Shown here in pieces: positions 2,468-17,673 of a DNA stretch of 64,000 bases. Within the stretch, counting starts at the first letter, position 1. Every line of letters starts with the position of its first letter. The DNA comes from Geobacillus subterraneus (GTDB lineage Bacteria > Bacillota > Bacilli > Bacillales > Anoxybacillaceae): NCBI RefSeq assembly GCF_001618685.1, contig NZ_CP014342.1, positions 1,116,001 through 1,180,000 of the forward strand. Direction: 5' to 3'. The position numbers and the translations under genes were made by a program. Below the pieces are notes generated by a model. The model was not told the origin of the DNA, ran no database searches, and worked only from the letters and a program-made list of their open reading frames with translations.

Positions 2468-2760
2468 ACCGAAAAAGATAATGAAAGTTCATGGTGTGGC
2501 AGAAGCATCGTTCTTTCCCTCCATTTCTCCTTCGTCCTGCCTTCATAATAAAACAGCTTGTCGACTTTGTTGACAAGATGAGCCGACTTAATAAACTGAC
2601 GTTTTTTGTTATATCTAATTGTACTTTAATTATTTTCTCGTACAACGCTGCTTGTACGTATTCAACTAGTTCATATATTGATATACACTGAACGTTTTCT
2701 TGACACTTGAGGTAAACCGATTAAGTAAAATGAGTCATTTTTATTATTTTGTTACTCCTT

Positions 2761-2793
2761 CTACATAACTTCTGCAAATTTATTTATTAAAAT
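2761..2793 (+). promoter_or_regulatory. Island promoter box A (upstream of lgt)
   Basis: A 21-bp box (CTACATAAC then TTCTGCAAATTT, 2761-2781) is followed after exactly 6 bp by TAAAAT (2788-2793). The same arrangement precedes four other genes of the island. No good -35 hexamer is present, so the box probably binds an activator in place of one. It would drive the small pseudogene and lgt. Confidence 0.65.
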
Positions 2794-2836
2794 ACATTCA
2801 TCAAATTATTAAGAACTATTGATTCAGGAGGATTGT

Positions 2837-3120
2837 ATGAAAACTGTAAGAGTCAAAAGTCTAACAGAAGAAGTACAGGAATTAAATCAATCATTTAGCC
2901 GCTAAACTCAATATATTAGTAAATAACTTTGTCAATGGGGTTAGAATAGAATGACAAGGAAAAGCAAGTTTTTCAAATCGTAAATCGTCTTAGAGCGAGA
3001 GGCATACCAGCAGAAATTACGAAATCAAGATTAGCTATATTAGCTTATATGTTAGAAAATTCAGAGAAAAAGAATGGAAAGGAGACTTTAGTAAGTAAAT
3101 GGAAACCATTAAACCTCTAA
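2837..3120 (+). pseudogene. Small unknown gene broken by two frameshifts, overlapping the lgt start
   Basis: An ATG at 2837 has a strong ribosome site (AGGAGGATT) but the frame stops after 22 codons. Continuing in successive frames gives coherent protein-like sequence: first AAKLNILVNNFVNGVRIE, then KEKQVFQIVNRLRARGIPA, ending at a stop at 3118-3120 inside the lgt reading frame. Joined, these would make a protein of about 95 residues, charged and without membrane segments. I do not recognise the family. The strong ribosome site and the shared promoter suggest the intact ancestor was co-expressed with lgt. Confidence 0.45.
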
Positions 3121-3905
3121 ATCCAATTGCACTGGAATTAGGTCCTTTAAGTATTCATTGGTACGGAATTATTATTGGTACAGGGCTCTTGTTAGGATTG
3201 TATATTGCTACTAATGAAGCAGTAAAAAGGGGATTACAAAAAGAGGTATTTACCGACCTTGTATTATGGGCTGTCCCTATAGCTTTGATATGTGCCAGAA
3301 TTTATTATGTCATCTTTAATTGGTCGTATTATTCGCAACACCCCAATGAGATTATAGCTATATGGAAAGGCGGAATCGCCATTCACGGGGCTTTAATAGG
3401 TGCTATTGTCACAACTGTCGTTTTTGCAAAGAAAAAGAATTTGAGTTTTTGGAAATTGGCAGATATCGCAGCACCAAGCATTATACTGGGGCAAGCAATT
3501 GGACGTTGGGGAAACTTTATGAATCAGGAAGCACATGGAGGACCCGTTTCAAGAGAGTTTTTAGAAAGCCTTCACCTACCCGATTTTATCATTAATCAAA
3601 TGTACATTGAAGGAAGTTATTATCATCCAACATTTTTGTATGAGTCTCTATGGGACTTGATAGGGTTTCTGATTTTATTGATATTACAACGTTTAAACTT
3701 AAAACGTGGAGAAGTATTCTTGACTTATGTTATATGGTATTCGATTGGTAGATTCTTTATTGAAGGGATGAGAACAGATAGTTTAATGCTAACAGACAAT
3801 TTAAAAATGGCTCAAGTTTTATCTGTTGTTTTAGTGATTACAAGCACAGTTCTTATATTATACAGACGAACTAGAAAAGGTTTGACGGCTAGGTATAAAG
3901 ATTAG
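3099..3905 (+). CDS. lgt: Prolipoprotein diacylglyceryl transferase (accessory copy)
   Basis: Lgt transfers diacylglycerol from phosphatidylglycerol to the lipobox cysteine of prolipoproteins at the cytoplasmic membrane. The 268-residue product has about seven membrane segments, the catalytic-region His in AIHGALIG (H96) and the family signature [13 protein letters not shown] at 135-147, so it looks active. An AAGGAG site lies 13 bp upstream of the ATG. In Bacillaceae the housekeeping lgt normally sits beside hprK, so this AT-rich copy next to metal-resistance genes is probably a second, acquired one. Two lipoproteins of the same island (10717 and 15853) are obvious substrates. A promoter of the shared island type precedes it and a terminator follows. 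Confidence 0.93.
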
Positions 3906-3920
3906 ATTAAACTGTTTTTT

Positions 3921-3953
3921 AGGCTATCGAAAAAAGATCGATAGCCTCTTTTT
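3921..3953 (+). terminator. Rho-independent terminator after lgt
   Basis: GGCTATCG pairs with CGATAGCC around an A-rich loop and is followed by a T-run. Confidence 0.85.
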
Positions 3954-4056
3954 AATCCTGTGTATCTAATTAATAAAAAACTTGTAGCCAAAAATCCTGT
4001 CTGTGATAAGCTAAACAAATACTTGCTCTTGCCGCTAACACACTATGTTTTAATTT

Positions 4057-5305
4057 CACGAGTGTTGATTATCCAAAATTATACATACGCCTTCCATAAA
4101 TTTGGGCATACTCAAACAAAGCAGCGGCCATCCCGGATTTCCAATCGAGAGGAAGCTGCCCAGAGAAAAAACGGCGAACAAACGAAATGAAGGAAAGAGA
4201 GACGTTCGTCCGTTTTTTGGTTTGATCATACAGCCATCGCAGCAACACATACGCAATGAACGCCCCAAACAGCTGATTGTATACCGCATTTTCCGTCGTG
4301 CCAAACAAGGTTGGGACATTCAGATATTGCTTTACCCAGCGGAAAAAGACTTCAACGGTCCAACGTTGTTGGTACATGTCGGCAATGGTTTCCGCAGACG
4401 CATGGAAGAGATTCGTCACGACCCGAATGTCGCGGCCATTTGCATCTCGAAAGATCACCACCCGGTGACGCTTGGTGGAGCGGCATTGTTTCGTCCCCAA
4501 CTGGCACGTGAAGTCGGCTTGAACCGATGAGGATGTGCTGGAAAGGCGTTTCAAGCTTTTTTTCTGATGAAGTTCGATGTTGTCCTTCATTCGAATGACA
4601 AAGAGCTGATGCTGCTCCACAAATCGATCGAGGCGTTCGATTTTGACATACGCCCGGTCTTCCACCAGCACTTGTTGAGCGTTCGTCAACTGTTCTCCCA
4701 CTGGGCCATCATGACGCAGTCCGATGGTTTCCACCACGTCTGCCGGCAGCGAGGATTCCGGCGAATACGCGACGTGCAGCTTCACTCCGGCGCGTTCGCC
4801 GTGATACGGCGCCCATGGCAGGCGGTTTTTCCCGACCGTGACGGTCGTCGAATCCACCACCCGAAGCGGTTTGGGAAACCGAAGCGAACGGCGGGTTTGG
4901 CGGTTGCACTTGGAAATGATCAACGCCAACAAGCGTTTCATGATGTCATAGGGAACTTCTTTCGCTTTCTTGGATACTGTGGAATAATGGAATCGCGGCA
5001 ATCCATACAGAGGCCCCACATCGGCTCCGTGGCGAAAGCTTTTCCATTGATGCATGGCGGCCAGCAGGAAGAAGTGAATCCACTCGCGCAACGTAAAGGT
5101 TCGAGACGAATCACGATACCCAACCGCTTCGGCAATCAGTTGAATCTCTTCATCCGAAACAAGTTTTTGCATCAAATTCGGGAGTGTGGTATGCTTGTTC
5201 ATAGAGAGCACCTCCTGGGTTTGTTTGTGTCGCTACTCACATTCTACAGGAAAGGTGCTCTTTTTTCTATACCCTTTGGATTTTATTGGATAATCAACAC
5301 GCCTG
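4057..5305 (-). mobile_element. IS4-family element (IS5377-like), copy 1
   Basis: The 1249-bp element is bounded by inverted repeats with the common core GTGTTGATTATCCAA (4062-4076 and 5286-5300). It carries a single transposase. Copy 2 at 12300-13548 has the same length, orientation and near-identical sequence. The flanks here (TTTTAATTT on the left, ATATAATAT on the right) do not form a target duplication, unlike copy 2. The right end abuts the leader of the tnpB gene, whose own element left end is missing, so copy 1 probably marks a deletion or recombination junction. The name IS5377 is from memory of the protein and should be checked. Confidence 0.85.
4069..5202 (-). CDS. IS4-family transposase, copy 1
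   Basis: The product is about 377 residues from the ATG at 5202, chosen because AGGAGGTG lies six bases upstream. The IS4 DDE motifs are visible: D in RVVDSTTVTVG, D in VLVEDRAYVK, and the YREK-type signature with E in YQQRWTVEVFFRWVKQYL. A DUF4372-like N-terminal region precedes the catalytic core. It differs from copy 2 at only a few residues, for example W/L in TLREW/LIHFF, I/T in VVETI/TGLRH, V/F in RAYV/FKIE and G/A in QLFG/AAFI. Nothing suggests it is inactive. Confidence 0.92.
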   Translation of the reverse strand: MNKHTTLPNLMQKLVSDEEIQLIAEAVGYRDSSRTFTLREWIHFFLLAAMHQWKSFRHGADVGPLYGLPRFHYSTVSKKAKEVPYDIMKRLLALIISKCNRQTRRSLRFPKPLRVVDSTTVTVGKNRLPWAPYHGERAGVKLHVAYSPESSLPADVVETIGLRHDGPVGEQLTNAQQVLVEDRAYVKIERLDRFVEQHQLFVIRMKDNIELHQKKSLKRLSSTSSSVQADFTCQLGTKQCRSTKRHRVVIFRDANGRDIRVVTNLFHASAETIADMYQQRWTVEVFFRWVKQYLNVPTLFGTTENAVYNQLFGAFIAYVLLRWLYDQTKKRTNVSLSFISFVRRFFSGQLPLDWKSGMAAALFEYAQIYGRRMYNFG

Positions 5306-5339
5306 ATATAATATATTTAGTGAAAGAGAGGTGAGACAA

Positions 5340-6458
5340 ATGGACATGACGTTAACAGCCAAAATCAAAATTTACCCAACAGCGGAACAAGCAGAAGTAT
5401 TGAAAGCCACCCTTTCCGCTTATCGACAAGCGTGCAACGCTGTGTCTGTTGTGATTTTTGACACAAAAGTGCTTGCACAAGCCAAGTTACACGACATGAC
5501 CTATCGTCTACTTCGATCAAACTACGCGTTGCGTTCGCAAATGGCGCAATCTGTGATTAAAACGGTGATCGCTAGATACCGTTCCCTAAAAAGCAATGGT
5601 CATGAATGGACATTGGTTCGCTTTAAAAAACCTGAATATGATCTCGTTTGGAATCGAGATTATTCGCTTGTTCAAGGATTATTTTCTGTCAATACACTAG
5701 AAGGACGGATTAAAGTGCCGTTCGAACCAAAAGGCATGGAACAATATTTTGATGGCTCATGGACGTTTGGTACAGCCAAACTCGTCTATAAGCATAACCA
5801 ATTCTTTTTGCACATCCCTATGACCAAAACGATTCCAACCGTAGATGAACACAACATTCGCCAAGTGGTCGGTGTCGATGTAGGGGTTAACTTTCTTGCA
5901 GTAGCTTATGATTCGCAAGGGAAAACCACCTTTTTTAACGGACGAAAAATCAAGCATATGCGTGCGAAGTACAAACGAATGCGAAAAACCCTCCAACAAA
6001 AAGGGACGGCTTCTGCGCGTCGGAAGTTGAAAACAATCGGACAACGAGAAAACCGTTGGATGACGGATGTGAACCATACGATCACGAAGGCACTCGTTCG
6101 TCAATATGGAGAACGTACCCTTTTTGTATTAGAAGATTTAACAGGCATTCGTGAAAAAACAGAACGTGTACGTATCCATGACCGATATGAAACCGTATCG
6201 TGGGCTTTTTATCAGTTCCGTCACATGTTAGAGTATAAGGCACGTTTGCATGGGGCAAAAGTGATGGTGGTTGCTCCGCATTACACCTCTTTGACATGTC
6301 CAAAGTGCGGGCATACGGAAAAAGCCAATCGAAAGAAACGTACACACACCTTTTGTTGCCGAACATGTGGATACACCTCAAACGATGACCGCATTGGTGC
6401 CATGAACCTTCAACGAAAAGGAATAGAGTACATCGTTGAAGGAACGACACAGGCATGA
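5340..6458 (+). CDS. tnpB: TnpB (IS200/IS605 type) RNA-guided nuclease
   Basis: The 372-residue product carries the complete RuvC-like active site: D180 in GVDVGVN, E265 in LEDLTGI and D350 in NDDRIGAMN. A four-Cys zinc finger (CPKC at 320-323 and CRTC at 340-343) and an N-terminal OrfB HTH region are also present, so it is likely catalytically intact. TnpB cuts DNA using a guide RNA (omegaRNA) made from the element's right end. No tnpA transposase is nearby, and the element's left end has been removed by the adjacent IS4 copy. The start at 5340 is preferred over the in-frame GTG at 5331 because GAGAGG lies eight bases upstream. A structured right-end segment follows directly. Confidence 0.92.
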   Translation: MDMTLTAKIKIYPTAEQAEVLKATLSAYRQACNAVSVVIFDTKVLAQAKLHDMTYRLLRSNYALRSQMAQSVIKTVIARYRSLKSNGHEWTLVRFKKPEYDLVWNRDYSLVQGLFSVNTLEGRIKVPFEPKGMEQYFDGSWTFGTAKLVYKHNQFFLHIPMTKTIPTVDEHNIRQVVGVDVGVNFLAVAYDSQGKTTFFNGRKIKHMRAKYKRMRKTLQQKGTASARRKLKTIGQRENRWMTDVNHTITKALVRQYGERTLFVLEDLTGIREKTERVRIHDRYETVSWAFYQFRHMLEYKARLHGAKVMVVAPHYTSLTCPKCGHTEKANRKKRTHTFCCRTCGYTSNDDRIGAMNLQRKGIEYIVEGTTQA

Positions 6459-6465
6459 CCTGCGC

Positions 6466-6590
6466 CGTTGGGTAGTCGTCAACCTGCCCCTGATGCAACC
6501 CCAAGTCAAGGAAGGAGGACGAAGTCCGCTCGTACTTCTGGGGAGTTGCAAGCCCCCACTTCAAGCGTTAGCTAAGTGGGGGAAGTTGAC
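6466..6590 (+). ncRNA. Putative omegaRNA / right end of the tnpB element
   Basis: This GC-rich 125-bp segment directly follows tnpB. It contains pairing arms such as AGCCCCCACTT with AAGTGGGGG and ends in GTTGAC. It is repeated with only about four mismatches at 9476-9600 on the other strand. TnpB omegaRNAs derive from exactly this place, with the guide taken from the flank beyond the end, here starting TGGTTACTGG. The RNA itself is inferred. Confidence 0.65.
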
Positions 6591-6744
6591 TGGTTACTGG
6601 TCAACAAGAAGCATGAAGCGAAACGACAGTCCACTATGGAGCCGTGTGCGGCGTCGACAAATCAAAACCGTGATGAAAACAATCATCTTTTTTACAGTTA
6701 AATGCGTTCATCAGGATTCAGGTGTCACCTAATTTTCTGAATTT

Positions 6745-6777
6745 CTCCATAGAATCTACATATTTTATTTTTAACAT
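6745..6777 (+). promoter_or_regulatory. Island promoter box upstream of the P-type ATPase
   Basis: CTCCATAGA then ATCTACATATTT (6745-6765) matches the island box at 17 of 21 positions and is followed after 6 bp by TAACAT (6772-6777), the same geometry as the other four sites. Confidence 0.5.
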
Positions 6778-6822
6778 GATCATAATAAAGAAAGAAAATT
6801 TGTTCACGGAGGGGAATTTATT

Positions 6823-9030
6823 ATGAAGAGGAATAAACATATTTCTAGCACCCATAACAAAAATCATCACCATGACCACCATCATCATGATCATGGTCAT
6901 CATCACGCTCACCATCAAGAGAAACATTCATGTCATCACGAATCCAACACTTTCAGTTCTAGCTCGATACACTCGGATACCTCACATCAAACAGAAGAGA
7001 GAGAAAAACACGAAGATGATGAACATGAACAATTGTATCGAAAACTAATGAAAAAATGGTGGTTTGCCGGAATATTGTCGGTTCCTATTATATTGGTATC
7101 TTATCCAGATTTTTTTCCAATCATAAGAGATTTGTTGCCTATGGGAAGCAGTCAACTCTGGTTTAGCAGACTGCTCATGGCAGTAGTAGCCTTAATTGTG
7201 ATGATTTATAGCGGAAGCCAGTTTTTCATTGGGGCATGGGAAGGATTAAAACAACGTTCAGCCAATATGCATACACTGATTGCCATCGGGATCAGTGCGG
7301 CATGGATTTATTCGGTTGTCGCCTTGCTTTGGCCGGACTTATTTCCAGATCCATCGATGGCGGAAGTGTATTACGATGTTTCAACGGTTGTCACGGCGTT
7401 AGTTGTATTAGGAATGGCGATGGAAGAAAAAGCGAAGGGCAAATCATCTGAAGCGATTAAAAGACTCATTGGTTTACAACCTAAGACGGCTCGGGTGTTA
7501 AAAGAAGGAGTCGAAACAGAAATTCCTATATCGCGAATTCAGATCGGGGATATCGTTGTTGTACGGCCCGGTGAAAAGATACCGGTGGACGGGATGATTC
7601 TTGACGGAAGTTCAACTGTTGATGAATCGATGTTGACCGGCGAATCGTTGCCTGTACAGAAAGTTCAAGGAGACGAAGTATTTGGCGGCACGATGAATAA
7701 AACAGGGAGCTTTACATTTCAGGTGACAAAGTCACCGGATGATACCGCATTATCTAATATCATCAACATGGTGAAGCAAGCTCAAGGCTCCCGTATCCCT
7801 GTTCAACGAATTGTTGATAAAGTTTCTGCGATTTTTACTCCGAGTGTAATCATTTTAGCTATCATTGGGTACTTAATTTGGTTTAATTTCGGTCCTTCAC
7901 CTTCAAGTATGTATGCTCTAATTGTTTTAGTGACGACGCTCATTATTGCCTGTCCTTGTGCATTAGGAATGGCCACTCCTATGTCTTTAACAACCGGGAT
8001 AGGCAAAGGAGCGGAAAACGGGATTCTCATCCGTTCCGGCGAAGCGCTGCAAATCGCCCAGAAATTAACGACCATCGTTTTAGATAAGACGGGGACGATC
8101 ACCATGGGCAAACCTTCATTAACCGATGTGATCGCCGTTGGTTCCCTCAAAGAAAAAGAATTAATTTATTTCGCAGCAACGCTCGAACAAGGATCGGAAC
8201 ATCCGTTAGCAGGTGCAATACTTGAAGCAGCTAAAGAGAAAAATATATTGCTGGGAAAAACCGAGAATTTTGAAGCTATACCGGGGCATGGCGTGCAAGG
8301 ATGGATTGATGGCCACCATGTTCTATTCGGAAACTTAAAACTCATGAAGAAAGGCAACATTGCAACAGAAGCCTATATACAACATGCCGAAAGATTGGCG
8401 GACGAAGGAAAAACACCTATGTTTTTGGCGGTTGATGGAAAACCGGAAGGAGTCATCTCCGTAGCGGATGCGGTGAAACAAGATTCTTTAGAGGCAATTA
8501 CGGCAATGAAAAACATCGGATTAGAGGTGATCATGGTTACGGGGGATAATGAGCGAACGGCGCGTGCAATCGCGAAAAAAGTAGGGATTACCAATGTCAT
8601 CTCCGATGTGCTTCCGCAGAATAAAGCAGAAATTGTCCGGAAACTGCAAGCAGATGGAAAAAAAGTAGCGATGGTGGGAGACGGAATCAATGATGCCCCG
8701 GCACTTACGCAGGCAGATATTGGAATGGCAATTGGAACCGGTACGGATGTAGCGATTGAAGCGAGTGATATTACCCTTGTTAAAGGAAGTTTAAAATCGG
8801 TAGTGCAGGCGATTCAAATTAGTCGGGCAACGATGAGAAATGTATATCAAAATTTATTTGGTGCGTTCATTTATAATACACTAGGCATCCCAATCGCTCT
8901 TGGCGCGCTCTATCCATTGACCGGTTCATTATTGTCTCCGCTTGTAGCCGCAGCGGCAATGGCGTTTAGCTCTGTTACAGTTGTGGCAAACGCCAATCGC
9001 CTGAAACGTTTTAAACCAAAGGAGGTATGA
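6823..9030 (+). CDS. His-rich P1B-type copper-transporting ATPase (CopB-like length, Cu+ motifs)
   Basis: This membrane pump uses ATP to export a soft metal ion, most likely Cu+. The 735-residue protein starts with a His-rich tail (about 20 His in residues 5-46) in place of a CxxC heavy-metal domain. Visible motifs are TGES (272-275), CPC in the sixth membrane helix (377-379), DKTGT with the phosphorylated D421, the HP dipeptide (460-461) and GDGIND (619-624). The last helices carry YN and MxxSS, which with CPC define the Cu+ (P1B-1) class. His-rich N-termini are more typical of CopB/CPH pumps, so it is a mosaic. It has an AGGGG ribosome site and a stop followed three bases later by the cupredoxin start. 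Confidence 0.93.
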
Positions 9031-9033
9031 TTG

Positions 9034-9414
9034 ATGGATATGACTCAAATGATCGTTAATGTGAGTGGGCTGCTCCTTATTGTTTTCGTTGCTTGGTTTT
9101 TCTGGGGGCCTAAAAAGGGCGGATACAAAGCTACCTTCACCCCATCTGGATATCAAGAAGCAGAAATAATCGTCAAAGGTGGCTATACTCCACACATTGT
9201 TATAGTAAAAAAAGGAAAGCCGGTGAAGTTTCAATTTATTCGCAAAGAGGAAAACTCTTGTTCGGAAATGGTTGTATTTCCTGAATTCAATAAAAGTGCG
9301 GCTCTCCCTGTTGGGGAAAAGGTGACGGTTGAATTTCTGCCAAAAGAAAGCGGAGAATATTCGTTTCAATGTCAAATGGGGATGTATCGCGGGAAAGTAG
9401 TTGTCCAGGATTAA
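9034..9414 (+). CDS. Membrane-anchored cupredoxin-like protein
   Basis: One N-terminal membrane helix (about residues 5-25) is followed by a compact beta-rich domain of the cupredoxin (EfeO/plastocyanin-like) type. Possible copper ligands are H in YTPHIV, C in ENSCSEM and the C and Met of FQCQMGMY. The domain would sit outside the membrane and could accept copper from, or oxidise it near, the P-type ATPase encoded just upstream. AAAGGAGG lies seven bases before the ATG at 9034, within the end of the ATPase gene, so the two genes are almost certainly co-translated. Length is 126 residues. A direct role in copper handling is inferred from domain and context. Confidence 0.85.
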   Translation: MDMTQMIVNVSGLLLIVFVAWFFWGPKKGGYKATFTPSGYQEAEIIVKGGYTPHIVIVKKGKPVKFQFIRKEENSCSEMVVFPEFNKSAALPVGEKVTVEFLPKESGEYSFQCQMGMYRGKVVVQD

Positions 9415-9475
9415 AAGATGACATAGTGGTTTTTTCATAAAAGCTGTAAACTAAGCGGAAGAGGAGAGAGACGGA

Positions 9476-9600
9476 GTCAACTACCCCCACTTAGCTAACG
9501 CTTGAAGCGGGGGCTTGCAACTCCCCAGAAGTGCGAACGGACTTCGTCCTCCTTCCTTGACTTGGGGTTGCATCAGGGGCAGGTTGACGACTACCCAACG
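9476..9600 (-). ncRNA. Solitary omegaRNA-like right end without its own tnpB
   Basis: This is the reverse-strand repeat of 6466-6590 (about 121 of 125 bases identical). If transcribed it would carry a different guide, beginning TCCGTCTCTC, and could serve the TnpB encoded 3 kb away. Expression is not shown. Confidence 0.5.
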
Positions 9601-9868
9601 ACATAGGTCATGCCTATATCGCTACCGAGTGGCTCGGCATGTCTGTAGGCAGTACTTGACTTCCACGCACAACAGACGGATGTACGATCGATGTTTTACG
9701 GTTGCAACGTTTCCTGCAACCAACTCCCTACATCGAGTAACGGGGATTGGAGTGCCTTGATTCAACGGTTTTCTCCACATTCTTATTCTATCATATACAA
9801 AAGAAAGGAGGAAGGGCGATTCCTCCCCGACTTTCGCTCTCGCTTAGAAGTCGGGGTCTCCTCGCCAA
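9476..9868 (-). mobile_element. Internally deleted IS200/IS605-type element (right end plus left-end hairpin)
   Basis: Reading on the minus strand, the left end at about 9868 has a hairpin CCCCGACTT/AAGTCGGGG inside an outer GGCGA/TCGCC pair. This organisation matches the left end at 18010-18066. The right end (9476-9600) is nearly identical to the segment following tnpB at 6466-6590. Between them only a 51-codon open frame (start near 9777, MWRKPLNQGTPIPV) remains, which I do not recognise; no tnpA or tnpB core is present. It is a non-autonomous palindrome-associated derivative. Confidence 0.75.
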
Positions 9869-9870
9869 AG

Positions 9871-10065
9871 ATGATGAATTGGGCTAATCTTTTAATATTG
9901 TTACTATGTCCTTTAATGATGCTATTTTGTATGAGAGGACATAAGCATCATAAACATCATGATCATCATTCTTCTGATCATCATTCCATCAAGGAATTAC
10001 AGGATCAGATTACAAAATTACAGACAGACAATGAACGATTAAAGGAACAATTAAAAAGTAGATGA
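9871..10065 (+). CDS. Small His-rich membrane protein (DUF2933-like)
   Basis: The 64-residue product has one membrane helix (about 4-20, with LCPLMMLFC). A cluster of ten His follows (HKHHKHHDHHSSDHH, residues 24-38), and a short coiled coil ends the protein (KELQDQITKLQTDNERLKEQ). The His cluster suggests metal binding. Small proteins of this DUF2933 type are frequent near copper genes. The IS200/IS605 derivative ends immediately before the ATG, so the native ribosome site and promoter have been replaced and no good Shine-Dalgarno sequence is visible. Expression may therefore be poor. A strong hairpin follows the gene. Confidence 0.75.
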   Translation: MMNWANLLILLLCPLMMLFCMRGHKHHKHHDHHSSDHHSIKELQDQITKLQTDNERLKEQLKSR

Positions 10066-10073
10066 GTGGTGAG

Positions 10074-10111
10074 AAGTGTGTACTAAAAGTGCTCGCTTTT
10101 AGTACACACTT
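10074..10111 (+). terminator. Strong 16-bp hairpin after the His-rich small gene
   Basis: AAGTGTGTACTAAAAG pairs perfectly with CTTTTAGTACACACTT around a 6-nt loop. The following T-run is short, so this is a terminator or mRNA-stabilising hairpin. Confidence 0.7.
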
Positions 10112-10183
10112 GGCTTTTATGTTTAAGTTTTACATACAACTAAGTGGAATAGCATACAAAAATATGTTGGAGAAAGGTGGTTG

Positions 10184-10573
10184 ATGAAAGTGTTTCATTA
10201 TACGGTTGAAGTACAAAAGGAAATGAATGAAACGATGGAAATATTGGAGGAGAGTTTAAAAAGAGAAGGATTCGGAGTTTTGTGGAAATTTAGCGTCACG
10301 GAAAAGCTTCAAGAAAAAGGATTCGATTTTCAAACACCGTTTGTGATTTTGGAAGTATGCAATCCTCAAGAGGCAGCGCGTGTACTTTCTGAAAATTTAT
10401 TGGCAGGTTATTTTTTGCCATGCAAAATCGTGGTGTATAAAGAAAATGAAACGACAAAAATTGGGATGCCAAAACCAACCATGTTGATCAGCATGATGAA
10501 TAATGAACAATTGGAACACTTAGCCGAGGATATTGAAAAAAGATTGATATCCTGCATCAATGAGTGTAAATAA
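10184..10573 (+). CDS. DUF302 domain protein
   Basis: A cytosolic protein of 129 residues covers the whole DUF302 fold (FHYTVEVQKEMNE at the start; the core around TPFVILEVCNPQEAARVL). DUF302 proteins form small alpha/beta dimers of unproved function and often occur with copper or sulfur genes; the family is uncharacterised biochemically. Cys at ILEVCNP and LPCKIVV, plus CINEC near the end, could bind metal, but this is speculation. AAAGGTGG lies just upstream; the ATG at 10184 is preferred to the TTG before it. It appears monocistronic, between two hairpins. Confidence 0.8.
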   Translation: MKVFHYTVEVQKEMNETMEILEESLKREGFGVLWKFSVTEKLQEKGFDFQTPFVILEVCNPQEAARVLSENLLAGYFLPCKIVVYKENETTKIGMPKPTMLISMMNNEQLEHLAEDIEKRLISCINECK

Positions 10574-10604
10574 AATAAAGTGAAAATCACATTGTTTTTT
10601 GATA

Positions 10605-10634
10605 AAAAGCCTTTTATTAGGCTTTTTTTTTTTT
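10605..10634 (+). terminator. Terminator after the DUF302 gene
   Basis: AAAAGCC/GGCTTTT stem followed by an uninterrupted T-run of about ten bases. Confidence 0.85.
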
Positions 10635-10716
10635 ATGGAATTTGGGAAAAGTTTAAAAGTAATAACAAATGGGGATAAATACAATAAAGAAAAGATTCTT
10701 TCAGGGAGGATTACAT

Positions 10717-12018
10717 ATGATCAGTAAATTACTTAGGGGAGCGCTAGTAGCTGTGCTACCTGTCTTTATCATTACTGGATGTAACAATCAAAACAATGAC
10801 CATAATCAGATGAATCATGATTCGAAAGAAATGGATCATGCAAATATGAATCATGAAGATATGGATATGTCCTCCAATGATAAAGACAAAGGTAACAAAA
10901 CAAATGAAATGGAGTTCGCGAAGCCGCCAAACTCATTCAACCGTTTAGCAAGCCAAAACATGATCGTAACAGCGACGAAAAACGTTACTCGTATCAACAC
11001 GGATGATCCTATTGAGTTATCCGTCATGGTTTCACAAACGGTTTGGCCTGCCACTCATAAAGAAAACCAGCCCGGCGGAATTATTTTAGTGCCCGTTGAA
11101 AGTTGGCAAATCGCATTGGCAAGTGTAGACTTAATTCATCATCCGAGCAACGGCCCTGTTTTATTTACAAAAGATCAGAAAATACCAGATGCCGTCTTAA
11201 AGGAAATAAACCGCCTTCAGCCTTTAGGCACAGCTGACGGTACGCAAATTATGGTGATGGGAAATCTTGGTAAAAGTGAACTAGATAAATTAAAGAATTT
11301 TAAGCTGAAACAAATTAGTGAAACAGATCCAGCTGCGTTTGCGAAAGAAATTGACCAATTTTACAGCGACATTGCCGGCAAGACCCCGCAAAGCGTGATG
11401 ATTGGTTCTTTGGAAGATAAGGCAAAATTGTACACTCTTATAGCTGCCAATTGGATTGCCCACATGGAAGAACCGTTGTTGTATGTTACGGCAAATGACA
11501 TTCCGCAACCAACGAAAGAGGCGTTACAGCAAAGAAAAGGAAAAGCAAATATATACCTTTTAGGTCCCGAATCAGTAATCTCTAAAGAAGTGGAAAACGA
11601 ACTAAAATCATTTGGCACTGTTGTCCGAATCGCAGGCGATACACCGGTGCAACAATCCGTTTCTTTTGCTACTTATAAAGATGAAAAAACAAAATTTGGC
11701 TGGGGGCTAAATAATCCGGGGCATGGCGTATCATTTATTTCAACGAAAACCCCTGAATTAGCGATTGCAGCTGCGCCATTTTCTCATCTAGGAAAGCACG
11801 CACCTTTAATATGGCTAGAGAATGGAGCATTAACGACGGATGTATATGAATTTTTAGCTCGTTTAAAACCAACTTTTACTGTTGAGCCAACAGAGGGACC
11901 GTATAACCATGCATTTTTATCTGGTACATTCCGTTCCATCTCTTATCAAACACAAGGAATCATCGATGAAAAGCTCGAAATTATTCCCGCAACCGGAGAA
12001 GGACATGCAGGGCATTAG
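10717..12018 (+). CDS. Met/His-rich lipoprotein with cell-wall-binding-repeat-like domain
   Basis: A type II signal peptide (MISKLLRGALVAVLPVF) ends in the lipobox ITGC, so the mature protein would be a membrane lipoprotein. Next is a linker of about 40 residues rich in Met, His, Asp and Asn (NHDSKEMDHANMNHEDMDM), a likely copper-binding tether. The remaining 330 residues have repeated alpha/beta units resembling the CW_binding_2 fold (for example MIGSLEDKAKLYTLIAAN and GTVVRIAGDTPVQQSV). The start at 10717 has AGGAGG nine bases upstream; the longer frame from 10669 would bury the signal peptide. The island's own Lgt could modify it. A strong terminator follows. The role in copper binding is inferred from composition. 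Confidence 0.8.
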   Translation: MISKLLRGALVAVLPVFIITGCNNQNNDHNQMNHDSKEMDHANMNHEDMDMSSNDKDKGNKTNEMEFAKPPNSFNRLASQNMIVTATKNVTRINTDDPIELSVMVSQTVWPATHKENQPGGIILVPVESWQIALASVDLIHHPSNGPVLFTKDQKIPDAVLKEINRLQPLGTADGTQIMVMGNLGKSELDKLKNFKLKQISETDPAAFAKEIDQFYSDIAGKTPQSVMIGSLEDKAKLYTLIAANWIAHMEEPLLYVTANDIPQPTKEALQQRKGKANIYLLGPESVISKEVENELKSFGTVVRIAGDTPVQQSVSFATYKDEKTKFGWGLNNPGHGVSFISTKTPELAIAAAPFSHLGKHAPLIWLENGALTTDVYEFLARLKPTFTVEPTEGPYNHAFLSGTFRSISYQTQGIIDEKLEIIPATGEGHAGH

Positions 12019-12041
12019 AAGCACGTAAATCTATATACGCA

Positions 12042-12077
12042 AAACAGCTTGCAAGCCGAGCAAGCTGTTTTTTTTAT
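12042..12077 (+). terminator. Terminator after the Met/His-rich lipoprotein
   Basis: AACAGCTTGC pairs with GCAAGCTGTT and is followed by a T-run. The 220 bp from here to the IS4 copy contain no gene I can recognise. Confidence 0.88.
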
Positions 12078-12299
12078 TTTTGAAACTTGTGGTGTTAATA
12101 TGATGATGCAAACATATGGCATTCAACTAACATCAAAGGTTCTTGAATTATTCGCATATCATCACATACAACTTCTACAAGCTAATTTGTAATGATTCAT
12201 GTTGTTTAAGAAACATGTAAGCAACAAAGTATGATTATGATGACAGAGCCATTAGGCCATTAGAAATTCTAATCGATTTTTGAAAATATCTAATTACTA

Positions 12300-13548
12300 C
12301 ACGAGTGTTGATTATCCAAAATTATACATACGCCTTCCATAAATTTGGGCATACTCAAACAAAGCAGCGGCCATCCCGGATTTCCAATCGAGAGGAAGCT
12401 GCCCAGAGAAAAAACGGCGAACGAACGAAATGAAGGAAAGAGAGACGTTCGTCTGTTTTTTGGTTTGATCATACAGCCATCGCAGCAACACATACGCGAT
12501 GAACGCCGCAAACAGTTGGTTGTATACCGCATTTTCCGTCGTGCCAAACAAGGTCGGGACATTCAGATATTGCTTCACCCAACGGAAAAAGACTTCAACG
12601 GTCCAACGTTGTTGGTACATGTCGGCAATGGTTTCCGCAGACGCATGGAAGAGGTTCGTCACGACCCGAATGTCGCGGCCATTTGCATCTCGAAAGATCA
12701 CTACCCGGTGACGCTTGGTCGATCGGCATTGTTTCGTCCCCAACTGGCACGTGAAGTCGGCTTGAACCGATGAAGATGTGCTGGAAAGGCGTTTCAAGCT
12801 TTTTTTCTGATGAAGTTCGATGTTGTCCTTCATTCGAATGACAAAGAGCTGATGCTGCTCCACAAATCGATCGAGGCGTTCGATTTTGAAATACGCCCGG
12901 TCTTCCACCAGCACTTGTTGAGCGTTCGTCAACTGTTCTCCCACTGGGCCATCGTGACGCAGTCCGGTCGTTTCCACCACGTCTGCCGGCAGCGAGGATT
13001 CCGGCGAATACGCGACGTGCAGCTTCACTCCGGCGCGTTCGCCGTGATACGGCGCCCATGGGAGGCGGTTTTTCCCGACCGTGACGGTCGTCGAATCCAC
13101 CACCCGAAGCGGTTTGGGAAACCGAAGCGAACGGCGGGTTTGGCGGTTGCACTTGGAAATGATCAACGCCAACAAGCGTTTCATGATGTCATAGGGAACT
13201 TCTTTCGCTTTCTTGGATACAGTTGAATAATGGAATCGCGGCAATCCATACAGAGGCCCCACATCGGCTCCGTGGCGAAAGCTTTTCCATTGATGCATGG
13301 CGGCCAGCAGGAAGAAGTGAATCAACTCGCGCAACGTAAAGGTTCGAGACGAATCACGATACCCAACCGCTTCGGCAATCAGTTGAATCTCTTCATCCGA
13401 AACAAGTTTTTGCATCAAATTCGGGAGTGTGGTATGCTTGTTCATAGAGAGCACCTCCTGGGTTTGTTTGTGTCGTTACTCACATTCTACAGGAAAGGTG
13501 CTCTTTTTTCTATACCCTTTGGATTTTATTGGATAATCAACACGCCTG
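12300..13548 (-). mobile_element. IS4-family element (IS5377-like), copy 2, with 9-bp target duplication
   Basis: Same 1249-bp length, ends and orientation as copy 1. It is flanked by the direct repeat TAATTACTA (12291-12299 and 13549-13557), which fits the 9-12 bp duplications of IS4. The right-hand duplication overlaps the first three bases of MITE copy 2, so the IS inserted at the tip of an already resident MITE. Confidence 0.9.
12312..13445 (-). CDS. IS4-family transposase, copy 2
   Basis: This is a near-identical duplicate of the copy 1 transposase (377 residues from the ATG at 13445, AGGAGGTG upstream). The D, D and YREK-type E motifs are all present and the frame is open. The clear target duplication around this copy indicates a simple insertion, so it probably represents a functional element. 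Confidence 0.92.
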   Translation of the reverse strand: MNKHTTLPNLMQKLVSDEEIQLIAEAVGYRDSSRTFTLRELIHFFLLAAMHQWKSFRHGADVGPLYGLPRFHYSTVSKKAKEVPYDIMKRLLALIISKCNRQTRRSLRFPKPLRVVDSTTVTVGKNRLPWAPYHGERAGVKLHVAYSPESSLPADVVETTGLRHDGPVGEQLTNAQQVLVEDRAYFKIERLDRFVEQHQLFVIRMKDNIELHQKKSLKRLSSTSSSVQADFTCQLGTKQCRSTKRHRVVIFRDANGRDIRVVTNLFHASAETIADMYQQRWTVEVFFRWVKQYLNVPTLFGTTENAVYNQLFAAFIAYVLLRWLYDQTKKQTNVSLSFISFVRRFFSGQLPLDWKSGMAAALFEYAQIYGRRMYNFG

Positions 13549-13554
13549 TAATTA

Positions 13555-13677
13555 CTATATAAGTTGCAATTTTGTTTTACATGGCATTGTTCGCTCTTCT
13601 TGCCACCGTGCCAGCTTGTTAGGTGATAAAGTAAAGACGGACATGGAGGTCGGAATTTCTTTATTACAACCTATATA
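13555..13677 (+). repeat. 123-bp MITE-like repeat, copy 2
   Basis: Perfect inverted copy of 2345-2467. It ends CAACCTATATA and is followed by ATGATAATT; the same nonamer occurs at 2330-2338 just outside copy 1. The copies face each other across 11 kb. Confidence 0.75.
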
Positions 13678-13772
13678 ATGATAATTCGCGACAAAAATTT
13701 GTAAATGTTTATGAACACTTTCTCCATAATTCTCCTTTATTCTAAAACCAGAAAAGGATGGAGGTGTTGAAA

Positions 13773-14039
13773 ATGAAAAAACTTATTTCAGGTTTGTTCG
13801 TCCTTGTTTCAGCTTTTGTATTAGCTACAGCTGTTTTTGCAGCAAATAAAAATGATAATAATGATTGGAAAGAAATGTTGCCAATGATGAAACAAATGCA
13901 TCCAAATTTATCAGAGGAACAATTACAAAAAATGTATGAACAGTGTCGAAATACTAAAAATATGGATCAAATGATGGAACATATGATGAATAATAGCAAA
14001 ACGAATCAACAAATGATGAAACAAGGATATATGATGTAA
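13773..14039 (+). CDS. Small secreted Met-rich protein
   Basis: The 88-residue product has a Sec signal peptide (MKKLISGLFVLVSAFVLATAVFA, cleavage likely after AVFA). The mature part is short, with 14 Met in about 64 residues and motifs such as MLPMMKQMHPN and MDQMMEHMMNN. Such Met clusters bind Cu+ or act as methionine sinks outside the cell. A single Cys lies in YEQCRN. GGAGGTG precedes the ATG at 13773. MITE copy 2 lies just upstream and may have displaced part of the promoter; a weak match to the island box (TTCTCCATAATT followed after 6 bp by TATTCT) is present around 13724. Function is inferred from composition and context. Confidence 0.75.
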   Translation: MKKLISGLFVLVSAFVLATAVFAANKNDNNDWKEMLPMMKQMHPNLSEEQLQKMYEQCRNTKNMDQMMEHMMNNSKTNQQMMKQGYMM

Positions 14040-14052
14040 AGATCAGTTATTG

Positions 14053-14086
14053 AAACACTGTAGGCTTAAAACTACAGTGTTTTTTT
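14053..14086 (+). terminator. Terminator after the Met-rich gene
   Basis: AAACACTGTAG pairs with CTACAGTGTTT and a T-run follows. Confidence 0.88.
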
Positions 14087-14147
14087 CGTCCGCCTATTGT
14101 TGTATGATATTTGCAAGGCAATATTCGTGTGTATTTTTCACTGTAAA

Positions 14148-14180
14148 ATCCATCGATTCTGCAAATTTATGTTGTAAAAT
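14148..14180 (+). promoter_or_regulatory. Island promoter box B (upstream of the sensor kinase)
   Basis: ATCCATCGA then TTCTGCAAATTT (14148-14168) is followed after 6 bp by TAAAAT (14175-14180). It matches the best box (15779) at 18 of 21 positions. Confidence 0.65.
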
Positions 14181-14233
14181 AAAAAGCGCTCTACATAAAA
14201 GCAATAATGAGCTCTTATAAGGAAGGGACAAAA

Positions 14234-15121
14234 GTGCGAAAAATTTCGTTTAAGTTAGGGCTATTATTTTTTGTCTTTGTGTTAGGAATCGAAACGGTTT
14301 TATTTGCGTCGTTATATGTGACACTCGTTAACGCTAGAATTAATGAAGAATTTGAGCAGCTGTTAGCGAGAGGGAACAATCACCGTGATGTATTGGAAAA
14401 AAGCTATCACCCTTCTACGTTAGAACATGTCACCATGATGGAGTCGGAAGCGGAGACCGACGTCGTTATTACCAATGACAAGGGGAAGATACTATATTTT
14501 TCAGATCATATTTTACCATTTGCTAAAAGAGTAATAAAAAAATCAAATAAAAACATTCCCTATGGCGGAATGATTGTGCAAAAAAATTGGCAAAGAGAGT
14601 CGTATATTTCGACAGTAAGCCCGATTCGGATTGACGGCAAGAGCAAAGGATATGTGTACATGTTTCAGCATACGGCTTCCATTCAAAACATGATTGATAG
14701 GCTAAAACATCATTTTCTAGTCGTGGGCATTCTTTCCGTCTTTTTGACCATTATGACGATTGCTTTTTTATCAAGAGTCATTACGATTCCGCTCATTCGG
14801 ATGAAACAAGCGACCGAAAAACTGAGCAAGGGGGACTTTTCTGTCCGCCTGCAAGTAAAAGGAGAAGATGAGTTGGCACAGTTAGGAAAAGCGATTCAAA
14901 CATTGGCAAAGGATTTAGAATACTTAAAAAAAGAAAGAAACGAATTTCTCGCTAGTATTTCTCATGAACTTCGTACTCCGCTCACGTATGTCAAAGGATA
15001 TGCGGACATCGCGAGAAGGCCAACTATCGAGGAGGAAGAAAGAGCGAAATATTTGTCCATTATTTATGAAGAAGCAGAGCATATGCAAAAGTTAGTGAAA
15101 GACTTGTCGTTTGGGGTGTAG
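14234..15121 (+). pseudogene. Sensor histidine kinase, truncated before the ATPase domain
   Basis: The coded part (295 residues from a GTG at 14234 with AAGGAAGGG upstream) has a first membrane helix (about 8-30), an extracytoplasmic sensor region (about 31-160), a second helix, a HAMP domain and the dimerisation/phospho-acceptor box SISHELRTPLTYVKGYADIA. It stops 40 residues later at LVKDLSFGV, with no HATPase domain (N, G1, F and G2 boxes absent). No response regulator lies beside it. It is therefore a remnant of a two-component pair whose regulator and kinase core were deleted, probably in one event, before the TVP38 gene. It cannot autophosphorylate. It may be the former sensor for the island promoters; that link is inference. 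Confidence 0.85.
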
Positions 15122-15151
15122 GATATAAATGGGGGGATAAGGTAAAAAGAA

Positions 15152-15733
15152 ATGGAAGAGAAGCTCATTACATTGTTTCATACATATGAAAGCGTTGCTT
15201 ATCTCATTAGTATTGCGATCAATATTGTGATCAGTATTTTAGGCGTTGTACCGAGCGTATTTCTCACTGCAGCTAACTTGGCGGTATTCGGTTTTTGGAA
15301 AGGCACCTTTTTATCGTTTGTAGGGGAAGCTGTTGGGGCGATTGTTTCTTTCGTTTTATATCGAAAAGGATTTCACAAACTTTCGGAAACGAAATGGTTT
15401 TCCTATCCGAAAGTGAAACGTTTGCTTGAGGCAGAAGGGGTAGAAGCCTTTTCGCTTGTTTTGTCTTTGCGTCTTCTTCCTTTTGTTCCGTCGGGACTTG
15501 TGACGTTTGTGGCAGCGATCGGACACACCTCCTTACTGATCTTTATCATTGCCAGCTCGCTTGGAAAGCTGCCAGCACTTTTGTTAGAGGCATATTCGGT
15601 TTATCAAGTGATGAATTGGACATGGCAAGGGAAAGTGATATCGACATTTTTGTCTATTTTTTTACTCCTATTTACTTGGAAAAAAATCAATCGAAAAAAG
15701 GCTCGAGCTAACAAAATTGAAAGGGATTTATGA
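15152..15733 (+). CDS. TVP38/TMEM64 (VTT domain) membrane protein
   Basis: The 193-residue integral membrane protein has the VTT/DedA-like layout: hydrophobic segments at about 15-50, 60-75, 115-140 and 165-185, and the conserved re-entrant region FVGEAVGAIVSFVLYRKG with the later FVPSGLVTF. VTT proteins are lipid scramblase-like; bacterial members are broadly linked to envelope homeostasis. GGGGGATAAGG lies upstream of the ATG. It starts 31 bp after the broken kinase gene and may share its promoter. Substrate is unknown. The gene is intact. Confidence 0.85.
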   Translation: MEEKLITLFHTYESVAYLISIAINIVISILGVVPSVFLTAANLAVFGFWKGTFLSFVGEAVGAIVSFVLYRKGFHKLSETKWFSYPKVKRLLEAEGVEAFSLVLSLRLLPFVPSGLVTFVAAIGHTSLLIFIIASSLGKLPALLLEAYSVYQVMNWTWQGKVISTFLSIFLLLFTWKKINRKKARANKIERDL

Positions 15734-15778
15734 AGAGTGACAAAGAAGTTGTTAATATCATATCCAGAGAGAAACAAA

Positions 15779-15811
15779 CTCCATAAATTCTGCAAATTTT
15801 TCTGCTATAAA
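15779..15811 (+). promoter_or_regulatory. Island promoter box C (best match, upstream of the propeller lipoprotein)
   Basis: CTCCATAAA then TTCTGCAAATTT (15779-15799) is followed after 6 bp by TATAAA (15806-15811). This copy equals the consensus of the five sites. Confidence 0.7.
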
Positions 15812-15852
15812 ATATACTATGTCTACTTAATACACGAAAAGGAGTATCAGCA

Positions 15853-16833
15853 ATGAAAAAAATGACGAAAGCGATAATGATTACATCGGCTATTCTTCTT
15901 CTAAGCGCTTGTTCATCATCCAATGAAAAAAAACAGGCCTTTATTACAAGCAAAGAACAAGCAAAATCGAACGTATCTGTTACCAATAATCCTTTCTTTC
16001 AAGAAAAAAAAGAAGGAAAGATCGAGCATTTACATGGAATCGGTTATGCAGGCAACCAAAATGCGATTTACTTTGCTACACATGAGGGGTTACTCGTTTA
16101 CCAAAACAATAAGTGGTATGAAACGACTTCGTATAAACATGATTATATGGGCTTTTCTGCCACAGACGACGGCTTTTATTCATCAGGGCATCCGGAAGAA
16201 GGTTCATCTTTAGGAAATCCACTTGGTCTTGTGAAAAGTTTTGATAATGGACAAACATTGATGAATTTAGGATTTTATAAAGAATCTGATTTTCATTATA
16301 TGACAGTTGGCTATAAAAGCCATACCATTTATGTTGTGAACCAAGAAGAAAATAAAACGCTCGGACAAGGGGTATTTTACAGTAAAGACGACGGCAAAAC
16401 GTGGTCGCCAAGTCAATTGAACGGCCTGCCGCAAACGGCAGCGGGAACGATTGCTGCCCATCCAACGGACGAAAATATGGTCGGAATTAGTACATCGGAA
16501 GGAATTTTTGTTTCGAGAGATAATGGGAATACGTTTGAACGGTTTACTCGAAAAATCAATACGACGACGTTTGCGTTCCAAGAAAAATTCATTGTATTTG
16601 CAGCTGTAGAGAACGATAAACCTATCCTAATCAAACAATCATTAGACACAAAACAAGAGGAAGTTCTTTCTGTTCCTACGCTCGATGAAAAAGACCATAT
16701 CATGTATATGGCCTCTAATCCGAAAAATGAGAAGGAAATTGTGATCGCCACCATGAACGGGGATATTTTCATGACAAAAAATAACGGTGAAAGCTGGACA
16801 AGGATAGCATCGAAAGGGAAAATAAATTTTTAA
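15853..16833 (+). CDS. BNR/VPS10-like beta-propeller lipoprotein (F510_1955 type)
   Basis: A lipoprotein signal peptide (MKKMTKAIMITSAILLLSAC) precedes about 300 residues with repeated BNR-type turns such as SKDDGKTW, SRDNGNTF and TKNNGESW, typical of a sialidase/photosystem-stability-factor-like propeller. The opening EHLHGIGYAGN and the overall plan fit the family named F510_1955 glycosylhydrolase; I know of no demonstrated glycosidase activity. It would be anchored outside the membrane. It has its own island-type promoter and is followed by a terminator, so it is monocistronic. Its constant company with metal and redox genes suggests an envelope role, which is inference. Confidence 0.82.
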   Translation: MKKMTKAIMITSAILLLSACSSSNEKKQAFITSKEQAKSNVSVTNNPFFQEKKEGKIEHLHGIGYAGNQNAIYFATHEGLLVYQNNKWYETTSYKHDYMGFSATDDGFYSSGHPEEGSSLGNPLGLVKSFDNGQTLMNLGFYKESDFHYMTVGYKSHTIYVVNQEENKTLGQGVFYSKDDGKTWSPSQLNGLPQTAAGTIAAHPTDENMVGISTSEGIFVSRDNGNTFERFTRKINTTTFAFQEKFIVFAAVENDKPILIKQSLDTKQEEVLSVPTLDEKDHIMYMASNPKNEKEIVIATMNGDIFMTKNNGESWTRIASKGKINF

Positions 16834-16834
16834 T

Positions 16835-16861
16835 AAAAGACATGCGGAGGCATGTCTTTTT
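16835..16861 (+). terminator. Terminator after the propeller lipoprotein
   Basis: AAAAGACATGC pairs with GCATGTCTTTT around GGAG, with a final T-run. Confidence 0.85.
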
Positions 16862-16876
16862 GCTTAAAATATACCA

Positions 16877-16909
16877 CTCCACAATTTCTGCAAAATTCAT
16901 TGCTACAAT
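16877..16909 (+). promoter_or_regulatory. Island promoter box D (upstream of the CcdA-like gene)
   Basis: CTCCACAAT then TTCTGCAAAATT (16877-16897) is followed after 6 bp by TACAAT (16904-16909). It matches box C at 18 of 21 positions. Confidence 0.65.
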
Positions 16910-16944: not shown

Positions 16945-17673
16945 GTGTATTCGTTCTTGAGTCAAATCAGTAACTTTCTAAGTCAACCGTTTCTTAATAT
17001 GGCAAATAGCATGACAGCGATTCCTATTTTGTCAGCCTTTCTTCTTGGCATCGTGGGAGCGATGGCTCCGTGTCAACTCACTAGTAATTTAGGAGCGATC
17101 ACATTATACAGTAATCAGTCTTTGCAAAAAGGAATGGCTTGGAAAGAGTTGCTTTTATTTATTTTCGGTAAAATCGTTGCTTTTTCCGGTTTAGGCTTGA
17201 TTGTCTGGCTCATGGGGAAAGAGATTCAAAGTACGCTAACATTGTATTTTCCGTGGTTAAGAAAGCTCGTTGGTCCCATTCTCATTCTTGTAGGCTTATA
17301 TTTGTTAGGGCTTTTTAAAATGTATTGGAACGTTACCTTGTTCAAAGTGCCTGAGAGATGGCGAAAAGGAAAAATCGGTTCGTTTTTCATGGGATTTGGC
17401 TTTTCATTAGCTTTTTGTCCAACGATGTTTGTGCTGTTTTTTGTCACTCTCATGCCTCTCGTCTATTCAACGTCTTATGGGGTACTATTACCGAGCATCT
17501 TTGCCGTTGGAACTTCTGTACCTGTTATTTTCTTTATCTTTATCCTTTGGTACTTAGGATTTAGCGGCACTGTAATGAAAAAAGGAAGACAAGTAGGGGG
17601 GATTGTTCAAAAAGCAGCCGGAATCGTGATGGTTTTACTTGGTATATTAGATACGATCACTTATTGGTTTTAA
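16945..17673 (+). CDS. CcdA/DsbD-like (or SafE/UreH-type) membrane protein
   Basis: A polytopic protein of about 242 residues has six membrane segments arranged as two repeats. Each repeat carries the key proline-flanked cysteine: GAMAPCQLTSN in the first half and LAFCPTMFVLFF in the second. This paired Cys pattern is that of CcdA/DsbD-beta, which passes reducing equivalents across the membrane to thiol proteins; copper-transport relatives of the same superfamily also exist. The GTG at 16945 is preferred: the longer frame from 16852 begins inside the preceding terminator and spans the promoter. It forms an operon with the SHOCT gene 24 bp downstream. A role in reducing envelope Cys or copper is inferred. 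Confidence 0.82.
   Translation: MYSFLSQISNFLSQPFLNMANSMTAIPILSAFLLGIVGAMAPCQLTSNLGAITLYSNQSLQKGMAWKELLLFIFGKIVAFSGLGLIVWLMGKEIQSTLTLYFPWLRKLVGPILILVGLYLLGLFKMYWNVTLFKVPERWRKGKIGSFFMGFGFSLAFCPTMFVLFFVTLMPLVYSTSYGVLLPSIFAVGTSVPVIFFIFILWYLGFSGTVMKKGRQVGGIVQKAAGIVMVLLGILDTITYWF

Follow-up and report, generated by a model that had tools for sequence, protein, structure and literature searches.

A promoter box shared by copper-defence genes in Geobacillus and related Bacilli is very probably the operator of an LcoRS-like two-component system

Five promoters in a metal and redox island of Geobacillus subterraneus share a box at a fixed distance from the -10 hexamer, and the question that this raises is which regulator reads it. 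A reading of the window (the whole stretch of 64,000 nucleotides that was analysed) made from the sequence only had proposed an undescribed regulon of unrelated genes, controlled by one activator or by an alternative sigma factor. Our results suggest, with a probability of roughly 0.86, that the box is the operator of RR, an OmpR/PhoB-type response regulator encoded with the kinase HK in an HK-RR-VTT operon, the two forming a copper-responsive two-component system similar to LcoRS. The regulon is linked to copper, and it is wider than the sequence-only reading had it.

All five boxes were present as claimed, matching the best copy at 17 to 21 of 21 positions (Table 1). In all five, the box is followed after exactly 6 bp by a -10-like hexamer, although the exact hexamer upstream of the propeller lipoprotein is ambiguous because the sequence there is TATAAAAT. 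None of these promoters has a -35 hexamer. When each site was scored with a matrix built from the others, the five ranked 5th, 5th, 4th, 1st and 5th among all window positions on both strands. The matrix from all five sites scored them at 25.7 to 31.1, versus 11.5 for the next-best window position, and no score equal to theirs occurred in 60 random sequences of 15.5 kb each with the dinucleotide frequencies of the island. The weaker sixth candidate before the Met-rich gene also proved real, but its position had to be shifted to a register starting at 13712 (box 13712-13731, TATTCT 13738-13743). Its first half-site is decayed, and the register was taken from a better preserved relative in G011, TCCATACTTTCTCCATACTT-N6-TATTCT; another better-kept form lies at L036:3968. 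Overlooked in the sequence-only reading were the repeat structure of the box, the truncation of the kinase gene, the further sites beyond the window and the 305 bp, containing remnant small ORFs, between the first -10 and lgt.

Table 1. Promoter boxes and genes of the island, in window coordinates; identities are to the best copy of the box.
Feature	Position	Strand	Evidence or remark
Box and -10 upstream of lgt	2759..2793	+	22-bp direct repeat 2759-2780; TAAAAT 2788-2793; box at 2761, 19/21
lgt, prolipoprotein diacylglyceryl transferase	3099..3905	+	Pfam LGT 6.7e-86
Box and -10 upstream of His-rich copper-type P-type ATPase	6743..6777	+	TAACAT 6772-6777; box at 6745, 17/21
Copper-type P-type ATPase, His-rich N-terminus	6823..9030	+	Profile matches
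Membrane-anchored cupredoxin	9031..9414	+	Pfam Cupredoxin_1 1.7e-19; presumed operon with P-type ATPase
Weak sixth box and -10 upstream of small Met-rich exported protein	13709..13743	+	TATTCT; 3 mismatches in genome scan
Small Met-rich exported protein	13773..14039	+	Sequence
Box and -10 upstream of kinase gene	14146..14180	+	TAAAAT 14175-14180; putative autoregulation site; box at 14148, 18/21
Truncated sensor kinase (sensor, HAMP, HisKA only)	14207..15121	+	Pfam
VTT-domain membrane protein, third gene of HK-RR-VTT operon	15152..15733	+	Pfam VTT 2e-20
Box and -10 upstream of propeller lipoprotein	15777..15811	+	TATAAA 15806-15811; box at 15779, 21/21
Beta-propeller lipoprotein, F510_1955 family	15853..16833	+	NCBIfam 1.7e-83
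Box and -10 upstream of CcdA/ArsG-like membrane protein	16875..16909	+	TACAAT 16904-16909; box at 16877, 18/21
CcdA/ArsG-like membrane protein	16945..17673	+	NCBIfam ArsG 2.7e-38, below model's cut-off

Within the box, a motif is repeated directly in tandem with a period of 11 bp, and the whole can be written as 7 + 4 + 7 + 4 (TTCTCCA-TAAA-TTCTGCA-AATT). For 64 distinct non-window sites that scored at least 16 with the matrix of the five window boxes, self-identity was 0.54 at a shift of 11 bp, versus 0.30 in shuffled sequences, and never exceeded 0.45 at the other shifts from 6 to 16 bp. In the window boxes the first half-site is imperfect, the halves being equal at 3 to 7 of 11 positions. 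The phasing was scanned in other loci with the same matrix and threshold, a -10 not being required. Among 62 distinct hold-out sites, which are not independent because many are orthologous, 55 matched TATAAT in at least four of six positions exactly 6 bp downstream of the box, versus 28 at the next best offset; TAnnnT was found at the 6-bp offset in 46 of them and in at most 8 at any other. The difference between 62 and 64 sites comes from how duplicates of the window sites were dropped. A shared regulon with fixed phasing is thus strongly supported, also on sites outside the set that defined it.

As far as the accessible text of PMC4832192 goes, every known site of the OmpR/PhoB family is a direct repeat, and the pho box of PhoB and the mycobacterial PhoP sites resemble our box in having 7-bp motifs directly repeated across a 4-bp spacer. 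PhoB sites also overlap the -35 place (accessible part of PMC3348028). PhoB itself differs in motif and in signal, and RR scores below the PhoB equivalog cut-off. Since an 11-bp tandem repeat is the geometry of an OmpR/PhoB-type operator, an activator is more plausible than a sigma factor, and we infer that RR is the protein bound at this repeat. Direct recognition of the box by an alternative sigma factor, for example an ECF one, would also account for the fixed spacing and the absent -35 hexamer. However, the hexamers at offset 6 are ordinary TATAAT-like ones rather than a non-standard -10, the box is a direct repeat, and across genomes it goes with a response-regulator gene (see below). This half of the original proposal therefore lacks support, and we regard such a sigma factor as very improbable. 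The other half, one activator, gained support together with a candidate: most likely, RR acts as a PhoB-type activator and the regulator is an LcoRS-like system.

Random genome-wide occurrence of the box had been named as an outcome that would speak against a regulon, and it was not observed. In the 3.47 Mb genome, the box plus -10 pattern gave 18 matches at up to 3 mismatches, versus 1 in the reversed control, and the box alone gave 12 matches at up to 1 mismatch, versus 0. The sites lie mostly at copper genes. Six of the 18 are in the window (the five boxes and the sixth), the lgt site having 0 mismatches and the ATPase site 2, and four are within 9 kb upstream of it, at a copy of the Met-rich gene, a nuclease-like gene, an intact kinase gene and an NlpC/P60 gene. 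Another match, in L062, stands before the operon of the second intact kinase, which has csoR and a copA-like gene as neighbours. Five more are at 2,425-2,462 kb: one upstream of each of two multicopper oxidase genes, one before a CcdA-like gene, one before an asparagine-synthase-like gene and one at a place without an assigned gene; the remaining two, with 3 mismatches each, are at 111 kb and 1,778 kb. Eleven of the 12 box-only matches are among the 18, and one more is at 1,228 kb.

Contrary to what had been thought, the genes behind the boxes are not unrelated: copper islands contain them together again and again. Scanning 35 loci with the matrix (score of at least 12) gave 129 rows, own loci and orthologues included, of which 24 precede HK, 12 the propeller, 11 a CcdA/ArsG-like gene, 8 a multicopper oxidase, 5 a copper ATPase, 5 a nuclease-like gene, 4 lgt and 4 a thioredoxin-like gene, with fewer for other targets and 39 without a named gene. 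The lgt gene is preceded by the box also in L086, L084 and L087, and sites orthologous to that of the ATPase are found in L032, L034, L054 and L055. Further targets in genomes of the order are a CWB2 lipoprotein, YdhK and more CcdA-like genes. From the -10 to the first possible start codon there are 41-47 nt for the propeller, 17-32 for CcdA-like genes and 15-49 for the multicopper oxidase; for HK the distance is 5-55 nt in 14 of 23 rows and 162-234 nt in the other 9. The Met-rich exported protein had no Pfam match at E 0.01.

A search for an OmpR-type regulator gene beside homologous islands had been suggested, and RR is such a gene. The protein matches the MtrA, PhoB and VanR models and the BaeR, RegX3 and MtrA structures over its full length; it has the receiver domain with the phosphorylatable Asp (in VLLDIMMPEMDG) and the winged-helix DNA-binding domain that characterise the OmpR/PhoB class. 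In the window, the HK-RR copy has suffered a deletion of 1,139 bp relative to L002, L003 and L031. It starts where the HisKA domain ends and reaches the regulator gene's last codons, so that the kinase has lost its ATPase domain and nearly all of the regulator gene is gone. Two copies remain intact elsewhere in the genome, near 1,112 kb and 1,668 kb, each with its own box before the kinase. One (L061:6456-8505, with RR at 7834-8505; box L061:6389, score 22.5) lies some 20 kb upstream of the window copy, and the other, on the minus strand of L062, has its box at L062:9935 (score 30.5). With the window copy destroyed, it would fall to the intact copies to act in trans on the five window promoters. 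The L061 island shares five segments with the window island at 81-92% identity, and its losses differ from those of the window, e.g. a VTT gene fused to a remnant of the propeller. Two nearly identical transposase genes (window 4069-5211 and 12312-13454) lie on either side of the segment that begins with the ATPase and ends with the CWB2 lipoprotein, and this pair could account for the cutting and duplication of the island.

Similar promoter elements precede copper-defence genes in many Bacillus-like bacteria, and they tend to occur in genomes that have the regulator. In the 41 genomes of the family, RR of at least 69% identity is present in 36, all of which have the box at up to 2 mismatches, and the five without RR have box counts of 0, 1, 1, 1 and 1; by a hand sum, the family holds 217 matches versus 6 in the control. 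Two of the RR-less genomes, G024 and G029, keep their single site beside copper genes, and the single match in G015, a genome with 2 control matches and no matrix match, looks like chance. Across the order, with 397 genomes scanned for boxes at up to 1 mismatch and for a regulator at E 1e-75 or below (counts here and below copied by hand), the box occurs in 87 of 175 genomes with RR versus 24 of 222 without (Fisher p 6e-18, kinship ignored), and outside the family in 75 of 162 versus 22 of 218 (p 1e-15, kinship likewise ignored). The total for the order was 173 matches versus 15 in the control. In the other orders of the class (272 genomes), the box was found in 9 of 30 genomes with RR versus 18 of 242 without (p 0.0009, again ignoring kinship), with 38 matches versus 2. 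Moreover, among 76 matches listed from 49 non-family genomes with a listed regulator position, 36 are no more than 8 kb away from RR, where fewer than 1 would be expected by our estimate; this count is too low, because a second regulator of G068 lies near two more matches. Note that at the strict setting of up to 1 mismatch 88 of the 175 genomes of the order with RR have no box, which counts against the link between RR and the box.

Of the 24 genomes in the order that have a box and no RR, six were inspected. G029 holds the orphan site mentioned above; in G038 and G193 the sites lie upstream of a copper-island lipoprotein gene, that of G193 being a pattern match below the matrix threshold; and no known gene was recognised at the site in G204. 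The other two, G311 and G331, have no RR at the threshold and carry a sister regulator, RR2, which in Priestia is 44% identical to RR. RR2-HK2 systems were seen in the copper islands of L085 (15357-17476), L089 (7031-9240), L090, L091 and L107. Another possibility could be that the box is mainly the operator of RR2, or of some other OmpR-type regulator, and that its link with RR is a by-product of their linkage in copper islands. RR2 systems do have related boxes, and those of the RR2-only loci L089 and L090, from G311 and G331, include TTCTGCA in 5 of 7 matrix matches. However, at E 1e-60 this regulator family has just two members in the own genome, RR in both cases and RR2 in neither, and in many loci boxes precede the HK or RR genes themselves. 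In L107 and L091, where the local regulator is RR2, the second half of the 10 boxes is TTCTTCA in 5, TTCTCCA in 3 and TTCTGCA in none. Control mainly by RR2 or a similar regulator is thus unlikely, and RR remains our candidate. A clean split of specificity between RR and RR2 was considered and rejected: L107 and L091 fit it, and L089 and L090 contradict it.

Duplication of the island and its wealth of insertion sequences are what would be expected if the box were a non-regulatory DNA repeat carried along by such islands. G428, a genome from outside the order that has RR, offers an example of what this could look like, with nine near-identical box-like repeats (L108-L113), none upstream of copper genes, mostly without an obvious gene behind them and resembling a dispersed repeat; we rejected these nine matches as a large regulon because they do not precede copper genes, and they also count against our main reading. 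Against a mere repeat, the genes and flanks behind the sites differ, yet the spacing to the -10 is kept in several genera and on plasmids. This makes it hardly credible that the box has no regulatory role, and we return to it as the probable operator of RR.

RR and the kinase are 56% and 42% identical to LcoR and LcoS of Lactococcus, which we take to be the nearest characterised relatives of RR; among plasmid records, its closest matches are in Bacillaceae and related plasmids. Bacillus methanolicus pBM69 encodes a regulator 93% identical to RR and has six boxes scoring at least 24.8, five of them at the HK, propeller, TauE-like, multicopper oxidase and C39 genes and one with no gene assigned to it. 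According to the accessible text of PMC5152845, lcoRSABC lies on pNZ712, a strain carrying this plasmid grows in copper, and lcoRS is involved in regulating the copper-resistance genes lcoABC; that text describes no operator. As in our islands, homologous RR and HK genes lie together in a copper island, and lgt and DUF2933 genes, both also found in the own genome, adjoin LcoRS on the Lactococcus lactis plasmids pND306, pNZ712 and SK11 plasmid 3. SK11 plasmid 3 carries RR, HK, lgt (51% identical to that of the window) and DUF2933, and upstream of lgt it has TTCTGCACAAG-TTCTGCAAATTC-N6-TATAAT, the 6 bp being counted from the end of AAATTC. Box, repeat and 6-bp spacing at the lgt promoter are thus common to both, and a similar box precedes lgt on a L. 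sakei plasmid. The systems differ in gene order (RR-HK in LcoRS, HK-RR-VTT here) and in the number of sites, one in the LcoRS stretch examined versus more than a dozen in the own genome. In the lactic-acid plasmid stretches L084 and L087, which share the operator at the lgt promoter, no other promoter scored comparably, and lcoR itself had no box at the threshold used.

CsoR and CopY are one-component repressors for copper control in Gram-positive bacteria. The CopY motif TACANNTGTA is in none of the five window boxes when checked by eye; a csoR-like gene adjoins the islands of L062, L085 and L086. CopRS of Corynebacterium glutamicum is, by its description in the part of the literature accessible to us, likewise a copper-responsive two-component system. 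Among the papers listed, mostly from outside subscription journals, on lcoRS and lactococcal copper resistance, on copper islands of Geobacillus and Anoxybacillus, on copper regulons with lgt and on copper two-component systems of Geobacillus, none was seen to describe the box, and among the matches listed for TTCTGCAAA together with copper none concerned bacterial copper control by its title. Within that literature, the regulon may be called undescribed as regards its operator but not as regards its kind of regulator, which was already known. Very probably, the promoter element shared by this copper-defence cluster is the docking site of a copper-sensing regulator with a known lactococcal relative.

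How could such a regulator work? Extracytoplasmic copper would activate HK, and HK would phosphorylate RR. A head-to-tail pair of RR molecules would then occupy the 11-bp repeat TTCTnCA-NNNN-TTCTnCA, this repeat would substitute for the absent -35 hexamer, and RR would recruit the housekeeping RNA polymerase to the -10, 6 bp past the box. The targets would mostly be extracytoplasmic copper-handling proteins, with RR driving its own operon as well. The sensor domain of HK was modelled with a mean pLDDT of 86.6 (17 close sequences) as a PAS-like fold nearest to WalK receptor domains. Candidate ligand residues are kept among 18 chosen kinases, H50 in 17, H65 in 16, M69 in 15 and M143 in 18, the departures at the first three being in G428 and G437 and, for M69, in L. 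sakei; H50, H65, M69 and M143 may bind copper.

What began as a promoter motif is now a regulon that can be tested, for which a regulator and a signal are proposed. Shared control ties several poorly characterised families, namely the extra Lgt, the VTT protein, the F510_1955 propeller lipoprotein, the CWB2 and YdhK lipoproteins and the CcdA/ArsG-like proteins, to copper defence, and the motif can be used to annotate copper islands in the genomes and plasmids of Bacilli. We lean somewhat towards a broader view, in which extracytoplasmic copper defence throughout Bacilli, on dairy plasmids as well as in thermophiles, would be under one LcoRS-family system that uses a single operator of 22 bp. 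Targets of this system would include a dedicated Lgt and the redox or propeller lipoproteins, the operators would move with mobile islands, and broken islands would thereby still be served in trans. A shift of the half-site in the sister system could occur in some lineages; if true, it would be the TTCTTCA of L107 and L091, though not of L089 and L090.

Finally, some sites depart from the common pattern. A box at L081:5699 (minus strand), with a weak opposite match at 5701 (plus strand), lies between asparagine-synthase-like and C39 peptidase genes, with a multicopper oxidase gene adjoining, and related sites are present in L083 and L099. The TlpA and CcdA promoters carry a box variant with a different second half. 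Variants such as TCCATAATAAATTCATATTT are found at thioredoxin-like, CcdA and unknown-gene promoters (L031:7619, L032:11934, L083:10211 and 12398), and in these the 6-bp spacing to the -10 is mostly kept.
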